From a virus, in the IMG/VR virus record IMGVR_UViG_3300044522_000118, positions 1 to 28,021 of that record: DNA of 28,021 nt; one strand, 5' to 3'. Of this stretch, positions 781-19,940 are shown piece after piece (positions within the stretch are counted from its first letter, which is position 1; every line of letters starts with the position of its first letter). A program made the translations under genes and the position numbers. The notes beneath the pieces are model-generated. The model saw nothing but the letters and a program-made list of their open reading frames with translations. It made no database searches and was not told the origin of the DNA.

Positions 781-1060
781 ACCATCTATATATTAAGTTT
801 AAAAAATCAATTACGCATACATTACAATTATTATTATAATGATAATAAGCATCCTTTACTCTACGATATTCATTTAGTAGTTCTATCTGTACATCGTGAT
901 GAAAGTTTACTATTTCTCCAGTCCTATGATAGAAGTCGTAGTAATGCCTGTGCTTATCAAATATTACATTTGTTTCTTTCTCAACTAATAATGCTTTTGT
1001 AGGCATCGTATCGTTGCTGATTAATTTCTTGGAAGTTGTACCTTTTGGACGCCCACGCAT
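767..1060 (-). CDS. Small protein of unknown function with AT-hook-like N-terminus
   Basis: This 97-residue protein is not recognised as a named family. Its N-terminus, MRGRPKGTTSKK, resembles an AT-hook (GRP core flanked by basic residues) and could contact AT-rich DNA. The C-terminal third has a Cys-x2-Cys pair (NNCNVCVID) followed by an aromatic tail. It overlaps the end of the glycosyltransferase gene by 80 bases in another frame. A later ATG at 1006 would shorten the overlap to 26 bases but would remove the GRPKG motif, so the longer start is preferred. It also overlaps the next methyltransferase start by 14 bases, consistent with translational coupling. Confidence 0.6.
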   Translation of the reverse strand: MRGRPKGTTSKKLISNDTMPTKALLVEKETNVIFDKHRHYYDFYHRTGEIVNFHHDVQIELLNEYRRVKDAYYHYNNNCNVCVIDFLNLIYRWYDNN

Positions 1061-1976
1061 AAAGTTCGTTGCCTAAATTTTCCCTTAGACTAGGATTATT
1101 GGTTAATAAATTAATATACCTGAACCAGTCCTTTTGATTGTTAACCCATAATACAGGTGCATCTACATCCATATTATAAGGTGCTACGTTTGAACAAATG
1201 ACCGGCAACCTTTTTGCTGCTGCTTCTAATATTTTTAAATTGCTTTTGCAAGCGTGCCATTCTGAATCTTCTAAAGGTATTAATACAATATCTGCAAAGT
1301 TGTACATATCCATATACTGAGTAGGACTAGCTGAATGTAATTTTATAGATGGCAAATTACCAGTAAACATAGAAAACATTTTATCCCATATTGATTTAGT
1401 ATAAGCATCACTATCATTATATCCACCCATTACCATTTGAATATCCTTTCTACCTTGTAACCTTTTTAATGGTTCTTTTAAAATCTTAATATCATTATCG
1501 TGGCTAATGCTCCCACACCAAAACAATCTTACCTTATCAGACTTAACTCTTGTATCGTTAAACTGATTTAATCCATAAGGTAAGGCATTAGGCATTACAA
1601 TTACATTATCATTAAATTGCTTTACTTTATTCAATAAATTGATATTAGTAACCGTAACTAAATCTGCTTGCATTAAATTCCTTTCAATCCTTTCAGCTAT
1701 ATCTTGATAAGTGTTATAATAAAGATGATTAATTGGTAGTTGCCAATGGTCATCTATATCCATAACTACTTGACATCCAAGTAATTCCTTAGTTTTGTTC
1801 CAATTTAAATCGTATTGGCATATCCTATTATACAGTAAAATATCCCAATCATCGGTCTTATCTTCTGTTATATAATTGGTTACATAGCCTTTAATATCAT
1901 TCATAAAAGCAAGTGGTAACATTACTCTATGATATCCGCATCCTGATTCTTTATTTGTTACTCCTATGATGTTCAT
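981..1976 (-). CDS. GT-B fold glycosyltransferase (GT4-like)
   Basis: The 331-residue protein resembles phage-encoded GT-B glycosyltransferases. A glycine-rich N-terminal segment (KESGCGYHRVMLPL) is followed by an acidic DIDDHW motif near residue 73. The C-terminal half has the segment LFWCGSISHDNDI and the donor-binding region SNLKILEAAAKRLPVI, typical of GT4-type enzymes where a Glu contacts the nucleotide sugar. It should transfer a sugar from a nucleotide-sugar donor. The acceptor could be host surface glycan, a virion protein or modified DNA; nothing in the sequence decides this. Downstream genes overlap it (AT-hook-like protein, methyltransferase), and the tRNA-like gene lies just upstream. 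Confidence 0.82.
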   Translation of the reverse strand: MNIIGVTNKESGCGYHRVMLPLAFMNDIKGYVTNYITEDKTDDWDILLYNRICQYDLNWNKTKELLGCQVVMDIDDHWQLPINHLYYNTYQDIAERIERNLMQADLVTVTNINLLNKVKQFNDNVIVMPNALPYGLNQFNDTRVKSDKVRLFWCGSISHDNDIKILKEPLKRLQGRKDIQMVMGGYNDSDAYTKSIWDKMFSMFTGNLPSIKLHSASPTQYMDMYNFADIVLIPLEDSEWHACKSNLKILEAAAKRLPVICSNVAPYNMDVDAPVLWVNNQKDWFRYINLLTNNPSLRENLGNELYAWASKRYNFQEINQQRYDAYKSIIS

Positions 1977-1998: not shown

Positions 1999-2113
1999 TA
2001 GTCAGGGCAGGATTCGAACCTGCAATGCAACCTTATGCTTTGATTACTAGAATCTGCACATCCGACAATAGTTGCTACGGTATACTCGCGTTTACCAATT
2101 CCGCCACCTGACT
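1999..2113 (-). tRNA. Aberrant class II tRNA-like gene (Leu-like), anticodon not resolved
   Basis: Read on the minus strand, a perfect 7-bp acceptor stem (AGTCAGG with CCTGACT; 2107-2113 and 2000-2006), a perfect T-arm (GCAGG TTCGAAT CCTGC; 2007-2023), discriminator A (1999) and a class II D-arm (GCG GAATTGGTAAA CGC) are visible. The D-arm and A73 suggest Leu. CCA is not encoded. The region between the D- and T-arms is 64 nt, about 30 nt longer than usual, and contains no 5-bp/7-nt/5-bp anticodon arm. The best local hairpin is GATT-CTAGT-AATC, with a TAG triplet. Its 5' end overlaps the stop codon of the upstream membrane protein by 2 bases. It may be a divergent tRNA, a degenerate tRNA or a tRNA mimic. 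Confidence 0.6.
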
Positions 2114-2351
2114 ATTTTATTTTAATTGATATAAACCCTGCTCCGAATATTATTGCTATTAGTTCTACTGTATGTATAGGTAAAAAACTAAATAATACAG
2201 CACTCCATACTGTTAAACATTGGATGCAGTCAAAGGGTCTTAGTCTCTTTACTAAAGGGATTTTGAATATGCGCTTTAGTATGATATGCCCATTAAATAC
2301 ATTAATAAAATAATAAGCAAATGTAAATGCTGCTATTGGTATAATATACAT
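2112..2351 (-). CDS. Small integral membrane protein with CxxC
   Basis: The 79-residue protein has three predicted hydrophobic stretches: about residues 2-18, 46-60 and 62-75. Basic residues between the first two (KRIFKIPLVKRLR) suggest that this loop is cytoplasmic. The motif RPFDCIQCLTVW at 39-50 has a Cys-x2-Cys at the membrane edge, a pattern seen in small membrane proteins of many phages. It acts in the host inner membrane, but its job is unknown; it is far from the lysis cassette, so a holin role is not favoured. Its stop codon (2112-2114) overlaps the 5' end of the tRNA-like gene. It overlaps the sigma-like gene upstream by 19 bases. Confidence 0.65.
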   Translation of the reverse strand: MYIIPIAAFTFAYYFINVFNGHIILKRIFKIPLVKRLRPFDCIQCLTVWSAVLFSFLPIHTVELIAIIFGAGFISIKIK

Positions 2352-2845
2352 TTTAATTCTTTTTTTACTTTGTTAGTGATATTACAAACGTGGTTAACTG
2401 GTATTCCGTAATACTCTGCTACTTTTCTATTGCTTCCAAGTTCTACGTATTTATTGAATATTCTTATTTCGTGGTCTGTTTCTATGTCTATGTTATTTTT
2501 TGTGAGCGCTTTTGTTGCCTCGACTGCTAAACTTTCTGGAATCGTAGGTAAATCTAATTGACTGTTAAAATACTCAACTGCCTTTAATAAATCACTTTTT
2601 TTATACTTATAATAGAATTCTGATGTTTTAGAAGTAGCCATAAACCAACATATCTTAATAGCATACCTTAATAAGTTATTAGAGGCAAATAAAGCTGCTA
2701 TCTTATCACAAGGCTGAAGTAGTAAGCTAACTGCTATTTCTTGTCTTAAATCGTCTTGTATTGATTCAGGCTTTGTTTTGCTTATCGCTTTTATTAGGTC
2801 AGGATGGTTATATATCTCTAGTACTATATCATTACACTTGTTCAT
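2333..2845 (-). CDS. Sigma-70-like / helix-turn-helix transcription regulator candidate
   Basis: The 170-residue protein has two parts. The first (about residues 28-90: IQDDLRQEIAVSLL, then an LLRYAIKICWFMATS helix and a basic aromatic segment) resembles the helical region 2 of small sigma factors. The second (about 137-165: LGSNRKVAEYYGIPVNHVCNI followed by a basic helix) is a helix-turn-helix resembling sigma region 4. Together they suggest a phage sigma-like factor or late regulator that acts with host RNA polymerase. Region 2 is weak, so a simpler HTH regulator is possible. It overlaps the ParB-methyltransferase gene by 14 bases. Confidence 0.55.
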   Translation of the reverse strand: MNKCNDIVLEIYNHPDLIKAISKTKPESIQDDLRQEIAVSLLLQPCDKIAALFASNNLLRYAIKICWFMATSKTSEFYYKYKKSDLLKAVEYFNSQLDLPTIPESLAVEATKALTKNNIDIETDHEIRIFNKYVELGSNRKVAEYYGIPVNHVCNITNKVKKELKCILYQ

Positions 2846-4067
2846 CTAACCATTTTTGCGTTTCATCAATCCCATTCCTTTTAACACTTAATGTTGGGTC
2901 AAGTTTAATCATTCTGTTTACTATCACTTGGCAGTACTTTGGGTCAAGTTCCATACCATAGCATTTACGTTTAAGTTGGTGTGATGCTACTATTGTAGTT
3001 CCATTTCCTGTAAATGGTTCGTAAACTATTTCATTTTCTAATGAATAAAGTTTAATATATCTTGCAGGTAATTCAATAGGAAAGCCTGCTTTATTTTCTT
3101 GCTTATCTCCTTTTATATCTGTCCAATCGCTTTGCTGAACCCAAGATTCACTAATTCTGTTTTGTCCCCTACTTTTACTTCCTGCTTTGTAAAATGTTAA
3201 TAGATACTCTATACCACAATAAACAACATCATCAATAGGTCTTCTTGGTGTTGATGCACCTCCACCTTTTATCCAATGCCTTATATATCTTAATTTCCAT
3301 TCATTATCTAATAAAATATTTATCCATTTATCAAGTAATAAAATAACTCTTGTATCTTTTTCACTTTTTAAAGATGTTGCTCTTCCTGTACCTGTATTAA
3401 TAACAATTCTTGAGTAATTATCGTGCATAGCCAATAAAGAAGTATTTGCTATGTCAATAATAAATTTTTCAATTTCTTCTTCGCTTTCTTGTATTTCGTA
3501 ATCTTTACCAACCCAATAAGGAGGAGAAGTCATTAATAAATTAGCTTTACAATCATTCATTAATCTTAAAACTGCATCGCTATCAGTTGAATCTCCGCAT
3601 AACAAACGATGCTCTCCTATCTCAAATAAATCTCCTATTACAATATCAGTTTCTAATCCACCATCCGGCACATCAAAATCATCTTCTTCTGCTTCTATTT
3701 CTTTATAATCAAATACAGGTAAATCCATTCCCCAACCTTCTAACTGCTCCATATCCCAACTATTTGCAATCTCATCCCATTCCCATTCTCCAAAACCTAC
3801 ATTGTCTTTAATAATAAATTCGTTCTGCTTATCCTCGCTCCAGTCAACTACTTCAACATTAACTTCTTTATATCCGCATTCAATCATAGCTTTATATCTC
3901 ATATTGCCACCCAATATAACCATATCTTTATTTACTACAATCGGTCGGACTGATTCCATTTCAGGGAAATCTTTAATAGATTTTACAAGTTTTTTAAACT
4001 TTTCATCCTTTATTAATCTTGGATTCTTTGGATTGCTTTTTACTTTATCTACCTTAACTTTTATCAT
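2832..4067 (-). CDS. ParB-like nuclease domain fused to N4/N6 DNA methyltransferase
   Basis: The 411-residue protein has a ParB/Srx-like N-terminal domain (residues 1-90; ILGGNMRYKAM takes the place of the usual GERR motif) followed by an amino-methyltransferase. Catalytic motif IV, SPPYW (181-185), precedes the SAM-binding motif EPFTGNGTT (350-358), the order of beta-class methyltransferases; SPPYW-type motifs occur in N4-cytosine and some N6-adenine enzymes. It probably methylates phage DNA in the cell, either to resist host restriction or as part of a modification programme; no cognate restriction enzyme is evident. The N-terminal domain may give sequence recognition or nicking, which is inference. 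A GGGA-rich region near 268-275 lies between the motifs, perhaps part of the target-recognition region. Confidence 0.88.
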   Translation of the reverse strand: MIKVKVDKVKSNPKNPRLIKDEKFKKLVKSIKDFPEMESVRPIVVNKDMVILGGNMRYKAMIECGYKEVNVEVVDWSEDKQNEFIIKDNVGFGEWEWDEIANSWDMEQLEGWGMDLPVFDYKEIEAEEDDFDVPDGGLETDIVIGDLFEIGEHRLLCGDSTDSDAVLRLMNDCKANLLMTSPPYWVGKDYEIQESEEEIEKFIIDIANTSLLAMHDNYSRIVINTGTGRATSLKSEKDTRVILLLDKWINILLDNEWKLRYIRHWIKGGGASTPRRPIDDVVYCGIEYLLTFYKAGSKSRGQNRISESWVQQSDWTDIKGDKQENKAGFPIELPARYIKLYSLENEIVYEPFTGNGTTIVASHQLKRKCYGMELDPKYCQVIVNRMIKLDPTLSVKRNGIDETQKWLDEQV

Positions 4068-4465: not shown

Positions 4466-4734
4466 TAAAACGGTAAATCGCTTTTAGTATTTATATTAAT
4501 TGAGTTAGTTTCTACTTTTGCTTTTGGTTCAAAATCGTTCAAAGTTATCTTTACATTTTTTCCAAATTGGTCCGGCTCAGCATAAATATTAATATTTACT
4601 TTAACATATTTCTTTCCATTGTATTCGTATGAATGCTCTAGTGCATCTGTAATACATAGGCTTGAACTTAAAAAAGTTTCATTAATCTTTTTACCGCTTC
4701 CTAATCTGATTTGTTGTTTTTTTTCTGTGTTCAT
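4465..4734 (-). CDS. Small OB-like protein with SSB-type acidic C-terminal tip
   Basis: This 89-residue protein is not a recognised named family. Its middle (YNGKKYVKVNINIYAEPDQ then KNVKITLNDFEPK) looks beta-rich, and it ends in KSDLPF, resembling the D-D-x-P-F tail by which bacterial SSB recruits replication and repair proteins. It lies between a VRR-NUC nuclease and an HNH nuclease in a DNA-metabolism block. A role as a single-stranded-DNA-binding protein, or as a decoy or adaptor for SSB partners, is an inference from the tail and neighbourhood. The gene is tightly packed: 2 bases separate it from the upstream stop, and its own stop overlaps the HNH start. Confidence 0.6.
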   Translation of the reverse strand: MNTEKKQQIRLGSGKKINETFLSSSLCITDALEHSYEYNGKKYVKVNINIYAEPDQFGKNVKITLNDFEPKAKVETNSININTKSDLPF

Positions 4735-5364: not shown

Positions 5365-5595
5365 TTATTTTTTATATGTTTCGCTATAATAATCTTCGGC
5401 TTGTCTTGCTTTTGTGTTGCTATCTGAATATATATAATCATAAGCATCTGACCAACCTTCTAAATGTGCATTTATTATCTGCTCTTTTTCTTTTTCAAGT
5501 TTTTCTTTTACTAATCTTATAGTTAACTCTTTATATTTATAATTTTTAATTGATTCTAATTCATCAATTAATTCTTGCATAACACTTTTACTCAT
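5365..5595 (-). CDS. Small helical protein, unknown function
   Basis: The 76-residue protein is highly charged and probably all-helical: MQELIDELESI, then a Lys/Glu-rich stretch (VKEKLEKEKEQI), then an aromatic tail (GWSDAYDYIYSD). The heptad-like spacing suggests a short coiled coil. Similar small EKEQI-containing proteins occur in Bacteroidetes phage operons without assigned function. It overlaps the end of the GIY-YIG gene by 8 bases. No enzymatic motif is visible. Confidence 0.6.
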   Translation of the reverse strand: MSKSVMQELIDELESIKNYKYKELTIRLVKEKLEKEKEQIINAHLEGWSDAYDYIYSDSNTKARQAEDYYSETYKK

Positions 5596-6013
5596 AGTAT
5601 CTAAATTTTAATTTTTTAAATGTTTTGTGTTGCAAATGTCCTTGCAAATGTTTTGTTAAGTTTCCTGACTTTGAATTAAAATATCTTTCACATTCTCTTA
5701 CACTATTGAAAATAATTTCGTTATCAATACATTGTACTTTCTTTTGCCTATAACTACTTGGTTTATCTTTCAAGCATTTATCTGATTGTGTTTTTCTCCA
5801 ATTATTTCCATATATGTAACCTAAATAAGCATTTGTTATTTGATATTCTTCTTCAAATCTTAACGCTTCTTCTTTAGATTCAAATTCAGCAATAACCTGT
5901 GCATTAGTTATATCCCTATTGGATATATTTTTATGCTCCCATAATCTTTTACTTAAATCTCTTTTTGTTACACCACAATACTTTTCCTTTGGCAATACAT
6001 ATACTTTATACAT
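5588..6013 (-). CDS. GIY-YIG homing endonuclease with NUMOD-like C-terminus
   Basis: The 141-residue protein has an N-terminal GIY-YIG nuclease core: KVYVL (3-7) in place of GIY, YCGVT (12-16) in place of YIG, then RLWEHK with the conserved Arg/His region, and a Glu-rich helix (ESKEEALRFEEEYQI). The C-terminal segment (about 90-141; VQCIDNEIIFNSVRECERYF, then a basic HLQGHLQHKTFKKLKF) resembles NUMOD1/IENR repeats that bind DNA in homing endonucleases. It probably makes site-specific cuts and spreads itself. It stands alone, without a visible intron, at the edge of a 259-bp gene-free region, which fits a mobile insertion. Confidence 0.8.
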   Translation of the reverse strand: MYKVYVLPKEKYCGVTKRDLSKRLWEHKNISNRDITNAQVIAEFESKEEALRFEEEYQITNAYLGYIYGNNWRKTQSDKCLKDKPSSYRQKKVQCIDNEIIFNSVRECERYFNSKSGNLTKHLQGHLQHKTFKKLKFRYYE

Positions 6014-19154: not shown

Positions 19155-19940
19155 TTATCTTATTGTGAATGAAAATAATTCTCCTTCTTGTGTTACATCT
19201 CCAGTAGGTAGCGTAATTACATTACCAACTATTTGTAAATACATAGGATTTGCAGTAGGTAAGTTTGTGATACCTTTAACCAATCCTGACCTCATTGCAA
19301 TTAACACTACTTTATTAACTAATCCACCAACTGAGAAACTACTATCTCCGGCTGCCGGTGTATGATAAATAGTTGTTGCTCCACCGCTTGTCGCATTGTT
19401 AGAGAATACCCTTACTCCGTCATTTACATTACCTAAATAAATAGGACTTGTATATGCTTTTAATTCAGGGAATATAACATCTAATCCGCTGCCTGGATTA
19501 AAGTATTCAGAAAATAACAAATAGTTTTCCCTTAAATAATTAATTAATCTTTGCTTGTAAAATTCAGCAGTCTTTTTATATTCATTACCAATCAATTCTA
19601 AATCTGCTCTACTTGGAGCATTGCTTTCTTCACTTGTCTTTTGTAATATCCCCTTACTGAAAAATTGATAACCTAATCCAAAGGGTAATAAACTCATTGT
19701 GTACCAAACTAAACAATCCGTAATAAAATTATCTAATAAAGATTTCTCTAAATTAGATAAGTTGTTAGCCTCTATTCCTGATTGTAAACGTAGGTATAAA
19801 GTACTTCCCAAAGCAGGTTGCAAATAAAGGTCTTGCGCTACTTTAATATGTGGCTTTAATTGTTTACCATCAATAGCATCACTTATTCCAGTTCTGCTTT
19901 TAATTAGATTCTCAGATATGAAAAGTATATTTGCGCTCAT
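19155..19940 (-). CDS. Head-tail connector-like protein, DUF6712-like
   Basis: The 261-residue protein has a helical N-terminal part (about 1-165): HIKVAQDLYLQPALGSTLY, then NFITDCLVWYTMSLLPFGLG, then a long helix ending YLRENYLLFSEYFNPG. This resembles DUF6712-type phage proteins placed between portal and tail genes, probably connector or adaptor subunits. The C-terminal about 90 residues form a separate beta-rich module (VVLIAMRSGLVKGI, then GNVITLPTGDVTQEGELFSFTI) that I do not recognise and that may decorate the connector. The start immediately follows the portal stop. The structural role is inferred from position and fold. Confidence 0.65.
   Translation of the reverse strand: MSANILFISENLIKSRTGISDAIDGKQLKPHIKVAQDLYLQPALGSTLYLRLQSGIEANNLSNLEKSLLDNFITDCLVWYTMSLLPFGLGYQFFSKGILQKTSEESNAPSRADLELIGNEYKKTAEFYKQRLINYLRENYLLFSEYFNPGSGLDVIFPELKAYTSPIYLGNVNDGVRVFSNNATSGGATTIYHTPAAGDSSFSVGGLVNKVVLIAMRSGLVKGITNLPTANPMYLQIVGNVITLPTGDVTQEGELFSFTIR

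Follow-up and report, generated by a model that had tools for sequence, protein, structure and literature searches.

The tRNA-like element and its neighbours

The DNA analysed here, called the window, comprises the 28,021 bases of virus record IMGVR_UViG_3300044522_000118 in the IMG/VR database. On its minus strand it carries a 115-nucleotide (nt) tRNA-like element that has a complete leucine-type frame and no anticodon arm, and it is this element, together with the many phage elements built in the same way, that we describe. The features of the frame and the two adjacent genes are as follows:

1999..2113, minus strand: the complete 115-nt element, a Leu-type tRNA frame lacking an anticodon arm, matched by RF00005
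2107..2113, minus strand: 5' strand of the acceptor stem, AGTCAGG, 7 of 7 pairs with 2006..2000
2000..2006, minus strand: 3' strand of the acceptor stem, CCTGACT, paired with the 5' strand
1999, minus strand: discriminator A73, the leucine identity base
2088..2104, minus strand: D-arm GCG...CGC with A14, A15, G18G19 and A20a, 3-bp stem, fully paired
2007..2023, minus strand: T-arm GCAGG-TTCGAAT-CCTGC, 5-bp stem, fully paired
2024, minus strand: U48, the base preceding the T-arm
2024..2087, minus strand: insert of 64 nt replacing the anticodon and variable arms
2112..2351, minus strand: gene for a 79-aa protein, upstream of the element
981..1976, minus strand: glycosyltransferase gene, downstream of the element (phrog_7162, E = 1.9e-63; Pfam PF13692)

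Over model positions 1-71, RF00005, the tRNA model of Rfam, aligns to 2113..1999 of the minus strand with 42.3 bits (E = 5.9e-6; gathering score 29); a run of 47 nt that separates the D-arm from the T-arm is not placed. ARAGORN run without introns reported no tRNA gene in the window, and a scan of the element for a 5-7-5 anticodon arm with U33 gave mismatched and wrongly placed candidates only. An initial sequence-only reading had described a 115-nt tRNA-like element lacking a normal anticodon arm, with perfect Leu-like acceptor stem, D-arm, T-arm and discriminator and with too long a region between the D- and T-arms; these results bear it out on every one of these points, down to the exact coordinates and strand. 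CCA is not encoded. None of the Rfam 15 families other than tRNA matched above its gathering score, either on the element or on the inserts of the related elements described below.

The element lies between the two genes, all three being on the same strand. The TAG stop codon of the 79-aa gene, which is kept at 85-96% in relatives, shares 2 nt with the 5' end of the element, and this is the stop codon overlap that had been noticed from the sequence. Further along the minus strand (2832-4067) the window encodes a 411-aa protein in which a ParB-like region at the N-terminus is combined with a DNA methyltransferase region.

A folded insert in place of the anticodon arm

Within the insert of the window element the following helices were recognised:

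2070..2075, minus strand: 5' strand of helix b, GCAACT, paired with 2032..2027
2027..2032, minus strand: 3' strand of helix b, GGTTGC, its end lying 3 nt before the T-stem
2042..2054, minus strand: hairpin c, GATT-CTAGT-AATC, covarying in relatives
2035..2059, minus strand: short helix d around hairpin c, GTGC (2059..2056) with GCAT (2038..2035)
2062..2080, minus strand: possible crossing helix a, CCG (2080..2078) with CGG (2064..2062), a candidate pseudoknot with helix b

Comparison with related elements shows compensatory changes in two of these. Helix b is GTAACT/GGTTAC in the divergent member L171, and the pairs of hairpin c, GATT/AATC in the window, are replaced by GACT/AGTC, AACT/AGTT and GTAC/GTAC in relatives. 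Both strands of helix d are lost jointly in relatives of 104 nt. Helix a, of 3 bp in the window, is invariant among the relatives, which leaves it a candidate, and is longer in L171 (CCGT/ACGG). The sequence-only reading had put forward the hairpin with the 5-nt loop as a candidate for the anticodon arm; this hairpin exists and covaries, yet it belongs to the insert as a sub-hairpin and does not correspond to an anticodon arm.

Occurrence of the element in other phages

A search of viral contigs with a 25-base insert pattern (24 fixed positions) matched nine, of which six are outside the phage group of the window and carry the entire 115/116-nt element. The insert core GTATACCGTAGCAACTATNGTCGGA is identical in the window and in all nine, and has two changes in L171, a 111-nt member that was recovered through the frame search described below. 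The window element is not a chance occurrence: it recurs in unrelated phages, and its frame is found in well over 100 contigs. Relatives retain an intact acceptor and T-arm, the opposite of the random mutations by which the sequence-only reading would have been refuted; signs of decay (an extra base in the T-stem, an acceptor mismatch and T73) are present in two copies only, L076 and L079. Bacterial genome contigs were scanned with the F8 core only, and this gave one chance match, in an apparent coding sequence of a Firmicutes metagenome-assembled genome (L086). A BLAST match to the large phage LR756501 turned out to be an ordinary tRNA-Leu and was set aside.

The insertion site could be compared in 34 relatives that have both flanking genes. 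It is occupied by the element in three of them (an identical copy in L003 and a 104-nt version in L005 and L006), empty in 26, and filled by an open reading frame (ORF) in the other five, and we therefore regard it as an accessory locus. These other occupants are a 119-aa ORF (L004, L014, L016 and L019, with those of L004 and L014 read) and a 76-aa ORF (L025), and neither had a match in Pfam.

A class of frames with variable inserts

IMG/VR was searched with exact patterns, and the census is accordingly biased towards the patterns used; the contigs are also partly redundant and incomplete. The 5' frame AGTCAGGTGGCGNAATNGG gave at least 120 stretches, and those listed mostly had a matching 3' frame with wholly different interiors, the total length ranging from 71 to more than 190 nt. 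Searches were also made with the 3' frame (matches listed) and with a different acceptor end required. Together the three frame searches gave at least about 300 elements with a constant Leu-type frame and an insert of 16 to more than 100 nt. The 5'- and 3'-frame collection, which includes a few nested double readings and seven members of class K (see below), holds at least 260 elements in at least 184 insert clusters, with 152 singletons among those listed. The 12-base frame start AGTCAGGTGGCG occurs 13 times in a single phage record of 162 kb, always on the same strand, and the reversed pattern was absent from 32 of 32 records used as a control. Phages with these elements also encode normal tRNA sets.

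The frame is kept as a structure. The acceptor stem is fully paired in 139 of the 158 distinct 5'-frame matches listed, the 3' side being outside the search pattern, and a 5-bp T-stem is present in 143 of 147 listed matches with at most one acceptor mismatch. Two bases outside the search patterns were followed in two sets of 129 and 46 elements: A73 was found in 115/129 and 39/46, and U48 in 123/129 and 46/46. Normal Leu-type tRNAs on the same loci have both bases without exception (48/48 each), and for other normal tRNAs on these loci, taken as controls, the counts are 202/309 for A73 and 152/309 for U48. The elements are on the strand of the upstream gene in 184 of 204 cases and of the downstream gene in 176 of 194, and 7 of 240 lie within a long ORF.

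Of the 111 matches given by the search requiring another acceptor end, 32 were normal tRNA-Leu genes, 19 had no 3' end that could be recognised, and 60 were frames lacking an anticodon arm. The last correspond to 46 distinct elements with 34 acceptor sequences, and 31 of the 46 acceptors are entirely Watson-Crick paired. Some of these elements carry inserts with 80-98% identity to families of the AGTCAGG set (L348 with F2, L354 and L438 with F1, L429 with F11), and the short inserts of L375 and L422 match that of L165. Because insert families are found on different acceptors whose stems are still paired, modules have been exchanged with the pairing kept. As acceptors differ yet pair, and as insert families span acceptors, it is structure rather than any one sequence that is conserved.

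Structure and placement of the inserts

The inserts follow a common placement rule. With each insert cluster represented once, helices of 5 bp or more whose 3' strand stops precisely 2 or 3 nt short of the T-stem were found in 24%/21.6%, against 4.4%/5.5% in dinucleotide shuffles, roughly a fivefold enrichment, and helix ends at other offsets showed little or none. The other-acceptor set, which is independent, has the same peak (28%/26% against 7%/6% in mononucleotide shuffles). The 5' strand of this last helix begins a median of 18 nt past the D-arm, and the helix is therefore no anticodon stem; its place corresponds to the end of the long variable arm in class II tRNAs. Compensatory changes were found in 16 of 30 insert clusters, with 41 such pairs in total. 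The window element itself has the Leu frame, no anticodon arm, helix b 3 nt before the T-stem, U48 and A73, and so belongs to the class as proposed here.

No motif common to all inserts was found, only weak k-mer enrichments. A uniform pseudoknot topology was also considered and given up: pseudoknot scores exceed those of shuffles in 30 of 139 inserts at the 0.05 level, and nested (26) and hairpin (25) alternatives score nearly as well. In single cases crossing helices seem convincing, as in L126 compared with L213 (AGAGCAA/TTGCTCT and GTTGAA/TTCAAC) and in the Bacteroides phage BS-TP2. In L177, L182, L191, L221 (AGTCAGGTTGGATACAAGGTCGG...), L357, L381 and L205 a second T-arm-like hairpin, with a TTCGAGT or TTCGAGC loop, is present within the insert.

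The position of the last helix bears on the suggestion, made in the sequence-only reading, of an inserted or intron-bearing tRNA. In the form considered here, the element would be a true tRNA-Leu with an unusual small intron or insert whose removal yields a normal anticodon arm. ARAGORN gives formal solutions when introns are allowed, and a weak stem of the GAGT/ACTC type is present in some F8 members. The solutions are inconsistent, however: the identical sister copy is read as His(GTG) with a 21-nt intron and a 104-nt relative as Leu(GAG) with an 18-nt intron, and near-identical copies are given different anticodons (His, Leu, Arg and Cys). Elements at the short end of the range, which starts at 71 nt, have no room for an intron, and the helix that would be required competes with the covarying hairpin c. 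Since the last helix extends from a median of 18 nt past the D-arm to 2-3 nt before the T-stem, removing the interior leaves no 27-31/39-43 anticodon stem. We know of no intron class of about 20-30 nt that is removed from bacterial tRNAs, and we consider this explanation very improbable.

Decay had also been proposed from the sequence. In the form considered here, the elements would be decaying or recombination-scrambled tRNA genes whose frame persists only as a short patch of homology for exchange between phages, and the near-identity of the frame sequence among copies, the swapping of modules between acceptors, the two decayed copies in L076 and L079 and the homing endonuclease genes near some elements would all be expected. 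This would not explain why acceptor stems of quite different sequence remain paired, why inserts show compensatory changes and a placement rule, or why the identity bases are retained, and we judge it unlikely. Of the three suggestions of the sequence-only reading it is the first, a tRNA mimic, that is supported; that the element belongs to a very large class with a constant frame and variable inserts could not be seen from one sequence.

Other tRNA-like elements

Genes for phage transfer-messenger RNA (tmRNA) were found near the 115-nt element in three contigs (L080 952-1360, L076 8670-9115 and L077 780-1248). Perhaps, then, the element is a miniature ribosome-rescue RNA of the tmRNA kind, with a tRNA-like domain and pseudoknots replacing the anticodon arm, and the combination of a tRNA frame with inserts, some of them pseudoknot-like, could be read in the same way. 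We give this very little credence. The frame is Leu-type and not Ala-type, the D-arm is full, inserts of 16-100 nt could hardly, if at all, accommodate a tag reading frame, and RF00023 does not match the element, tmRNA being found only at separate loci in these three contigs.

In L076 and L077 an apparent GIY-YIG homing endonuclease ORF follows the tmRNA gene. Another apparent GIY-YIG ORF is found in L079 (about 2862-3600), where the 5' half of a Leu-like tRNA (AGTTAGGTGGCGGAATGCTCTAGAGCTTGG...) continues into it; an obvious 3' half is missing ahead of the following tRNA-like element, which begins at the stop codon of the ORF. L077 also has a 90-nt Leu-frame element (330-418) whose sole arm has an 8-nt loop, GACCGAAA, and to which ARAGORN assigns a 4-base anticodon, 'ccga'.

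Two further kinds of element were noted. A tRNA-like RNA of about 156-168 nt, which we call class K, occurs in 52 contigs (among them L080 478-635, L079 3600-3756, L116 and L295-L341). It has an acceptor such as TGTCAGG, an extra hairpin in the D-loop, a covarying 5-7-5 arm whose conserved loop, TCGTCTM, places C at position 33, and a variable arm, about 70 nt long, that contains the invariant core GGTKGACCACAAAGCCGGCT; there was no above-threshold Rfam match on L080, L076 or L079, and no match in INPHARED. A different tRNA-like element, of 148 nt (AGTCAGGTAGCTTAATGGTTAAAGC...), is found in L035 (321-468), L033 (1040-1187) and L061; it lies about 3 kb upstream in sister phages of the window and likewise has no normal anticodon arm.

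Hosts

BS-TP2 (PQ571275), an isolated, integrase-bearing phage of Bacteroides salyersiae BG8, carries one element of 108 nt at 19550-19657, unannotated, with the acceptor GGTATCG/CGATACC. The prophage-like record L346 has terminase DNA in common with BS-TP2 and Riemerella phages, and a capsid-like protein of the window has 29% identity to the Nonlabens (Flavobacteriia) phages P12024S/L. Bacteroidota are therefore likely hosts for the window phage, BS-TP2 and L346, a conclusion that applies to these three and is not extended to all carriers of the elements.

Discussion

The frame, the missing arm, the structured inserts and the distribution of these elements are established by the comparisons above. 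On balance we favour the view that the window element belongs to a large class of phage RNAs, so far undescribed, that act as natural 'tRNA scaffolds', in which a constant tRNA frame carries a variable folded insert. What we infer about processing, charging and role from these sequences is the following. The RNA would be cut from the phage transcript by the tRNA-maturation enzymes of the host (RNase P, 3' processing and CCA addition); such excision is probable because the elements are co-oriented with their neighbours. Leucyl-tRNA synthetase (LeuRS) is among the few synthetases that ignore the anticodon. It would probably charge the RNA, which is possible since it recognises A73 together with the D/T-loop core and needs no anticodon arm. 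The leucine determinants, established mainly in E. coli, are A73, A15-U48, G18G19, A20a and D/T-loop contacts, the anticodon arm being dispensable for LeuRS (PMC9976931), and the window element carries this identity set in full, the class also keeping it. An RNA without an anticodon arm cannot decode, so that it would act outside elongation. The stable carrier would then display a folded RNA module, most plausibly with an accessory function against a host factor. The diversity of the inserts suggests different or moving host targets, and their rapid turnover would fit an arms race.

The main rival to the scaffold reading is that the frame alone works, as a decoy or sponge occupying a host enzyme directed at tRNA, with an insert that simply blocks translation and drifts freely; a defence nuclease, a toxin modifying the ends of tRNA-Leu, or LeuRS itself could be the target. 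This would agree with a constant frame combined with very diverse inserts (the clusters and singletons counted above), with several copies per phage and with the normal tRNA sets that the phages also carry. A free plug, however, needs neither conservation nor placement, whereas some inserts are strongly kept across unrelated phages (the F8 core is invariant, and F2 and F3 are further such families) and the inserts share a placement rule. We consider a decoy role of the frame alone unlikely, although less so than decay.

Several results weigh against the scaffold reading. A73 is absent from about 11-15% of the elements, and 24 insert pairs are inconsistent in at least one sequence, compared with the 41 compensatory pairs. 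Class-wide support for pseudoknots is modest in a conditional test (15/61 below 0.1). For the window element the fold of minimum free energy (-34.4 kcal/mol) is not tRNA-like, the tRNA-like fold having -28.7 kcal/mol; the folding z-scores of its family are modest (-0.9 to -1.8), and the pairing that RNAalifold favours in the 5' half of the insert is a different one. There is no consistent neighbour gene, the commonest family being near elements in 13 of 155 loci, and a dedicated partner protein was rejected on these grounds. Nor is there an antisense signal: the longest stretch that an insert shares exactly with its own contig stretch averages 9.86, against 9.72 for shuffled inserts (229 elements), so that an antisense or guide function is rejected within the element's own contig stretch, hosts and other phages being outside the test.

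Several known systems resemble these elements in part. The closest is man-made, the engineered tRNA scaffold, which retains the acceptor, D- and T-arms, carries structured cargo RNA in place of the anticodon stem-loop, and accumulates in E. coli (PMC3753655). It is based on human tRNA-Lys3, whereas the elements described here are natural, Leu-type, from phages and with hundreds of inserts. tmRNA (RF00023) also has tRNA-like ends with other RNA, often pseudoknots, replacing the anticodon arm, but it is Ala-type, has a reduced D-arm, is about 350 nt long and contains a tag reading frame, none of which is seen in the phage elements. With bacterial class II tRNA-Leu (RF00005) they share U8, A14, A15-U48, G18G19, A73, the T-arm and a helix ending just before U48; unlike it they have no anticodon arm, have an insert up to several times longer, and cannot decode. 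The pseudo-tRNA 'tRNAOther' of Bacillus cereus is a tRNA-like gene for which no function in translation, but a cellular phenotype, is reported; as far as its description goes, it is one gene of a bacterium, next to a genomic island, with no family of variable inserts (PMC3399842). YrlA, a bacterial Y RNA (RF02553), and GOLLD (RF02032) are structured RNAs linked to phages or mobile elements and with tRNA links, but neither model matches the phage elements themselves. Contig L182, which also has a tRNA-like element, contains sub-threshold YrlA (4495-4593, 40.4 bits) and GOLLD (5497-5635, 68.7 bits) matches, the latter incomplete at the end of the locus.

No description of the class was found in a search of the open-access literature, which leaves out preprints and the majority of subscription journals. 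The components, tRNA frames on the one hand and structured RNAs on the other, are known; what is new is the architecture, with a constant Leu frame, no anticodon arm and a hypervariable structured insert.

If the scaffold reading is correct, phages have an abundant class of tRNA-derived RNAs that is scored as broken tRNAs or missed by gene finders. tRNA maturation and leucylation would be usable to make, and perhaps to label, non-decoding RNAs, and the elements would constitute a naturally occurring library in which one chassis bears hundreds of structured modules. With BS-TP2 the question is directly testable in culture. More tentatively, and with less than even confidence, we propose that Bacteroidota phages use the leucine tRNA chassis as a delivery format for fast-evolving folded RNAs, matured by the tRNA enzymes of the host, charged with leucine by a synthetase indifferent to the lost anticodon and diversified by the exchange of modules inside the constant frame, that serve in counter-defence or host takeover. 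If so, this format would be the RNA counterpart of other systems in which a constant frame holds a variable core.
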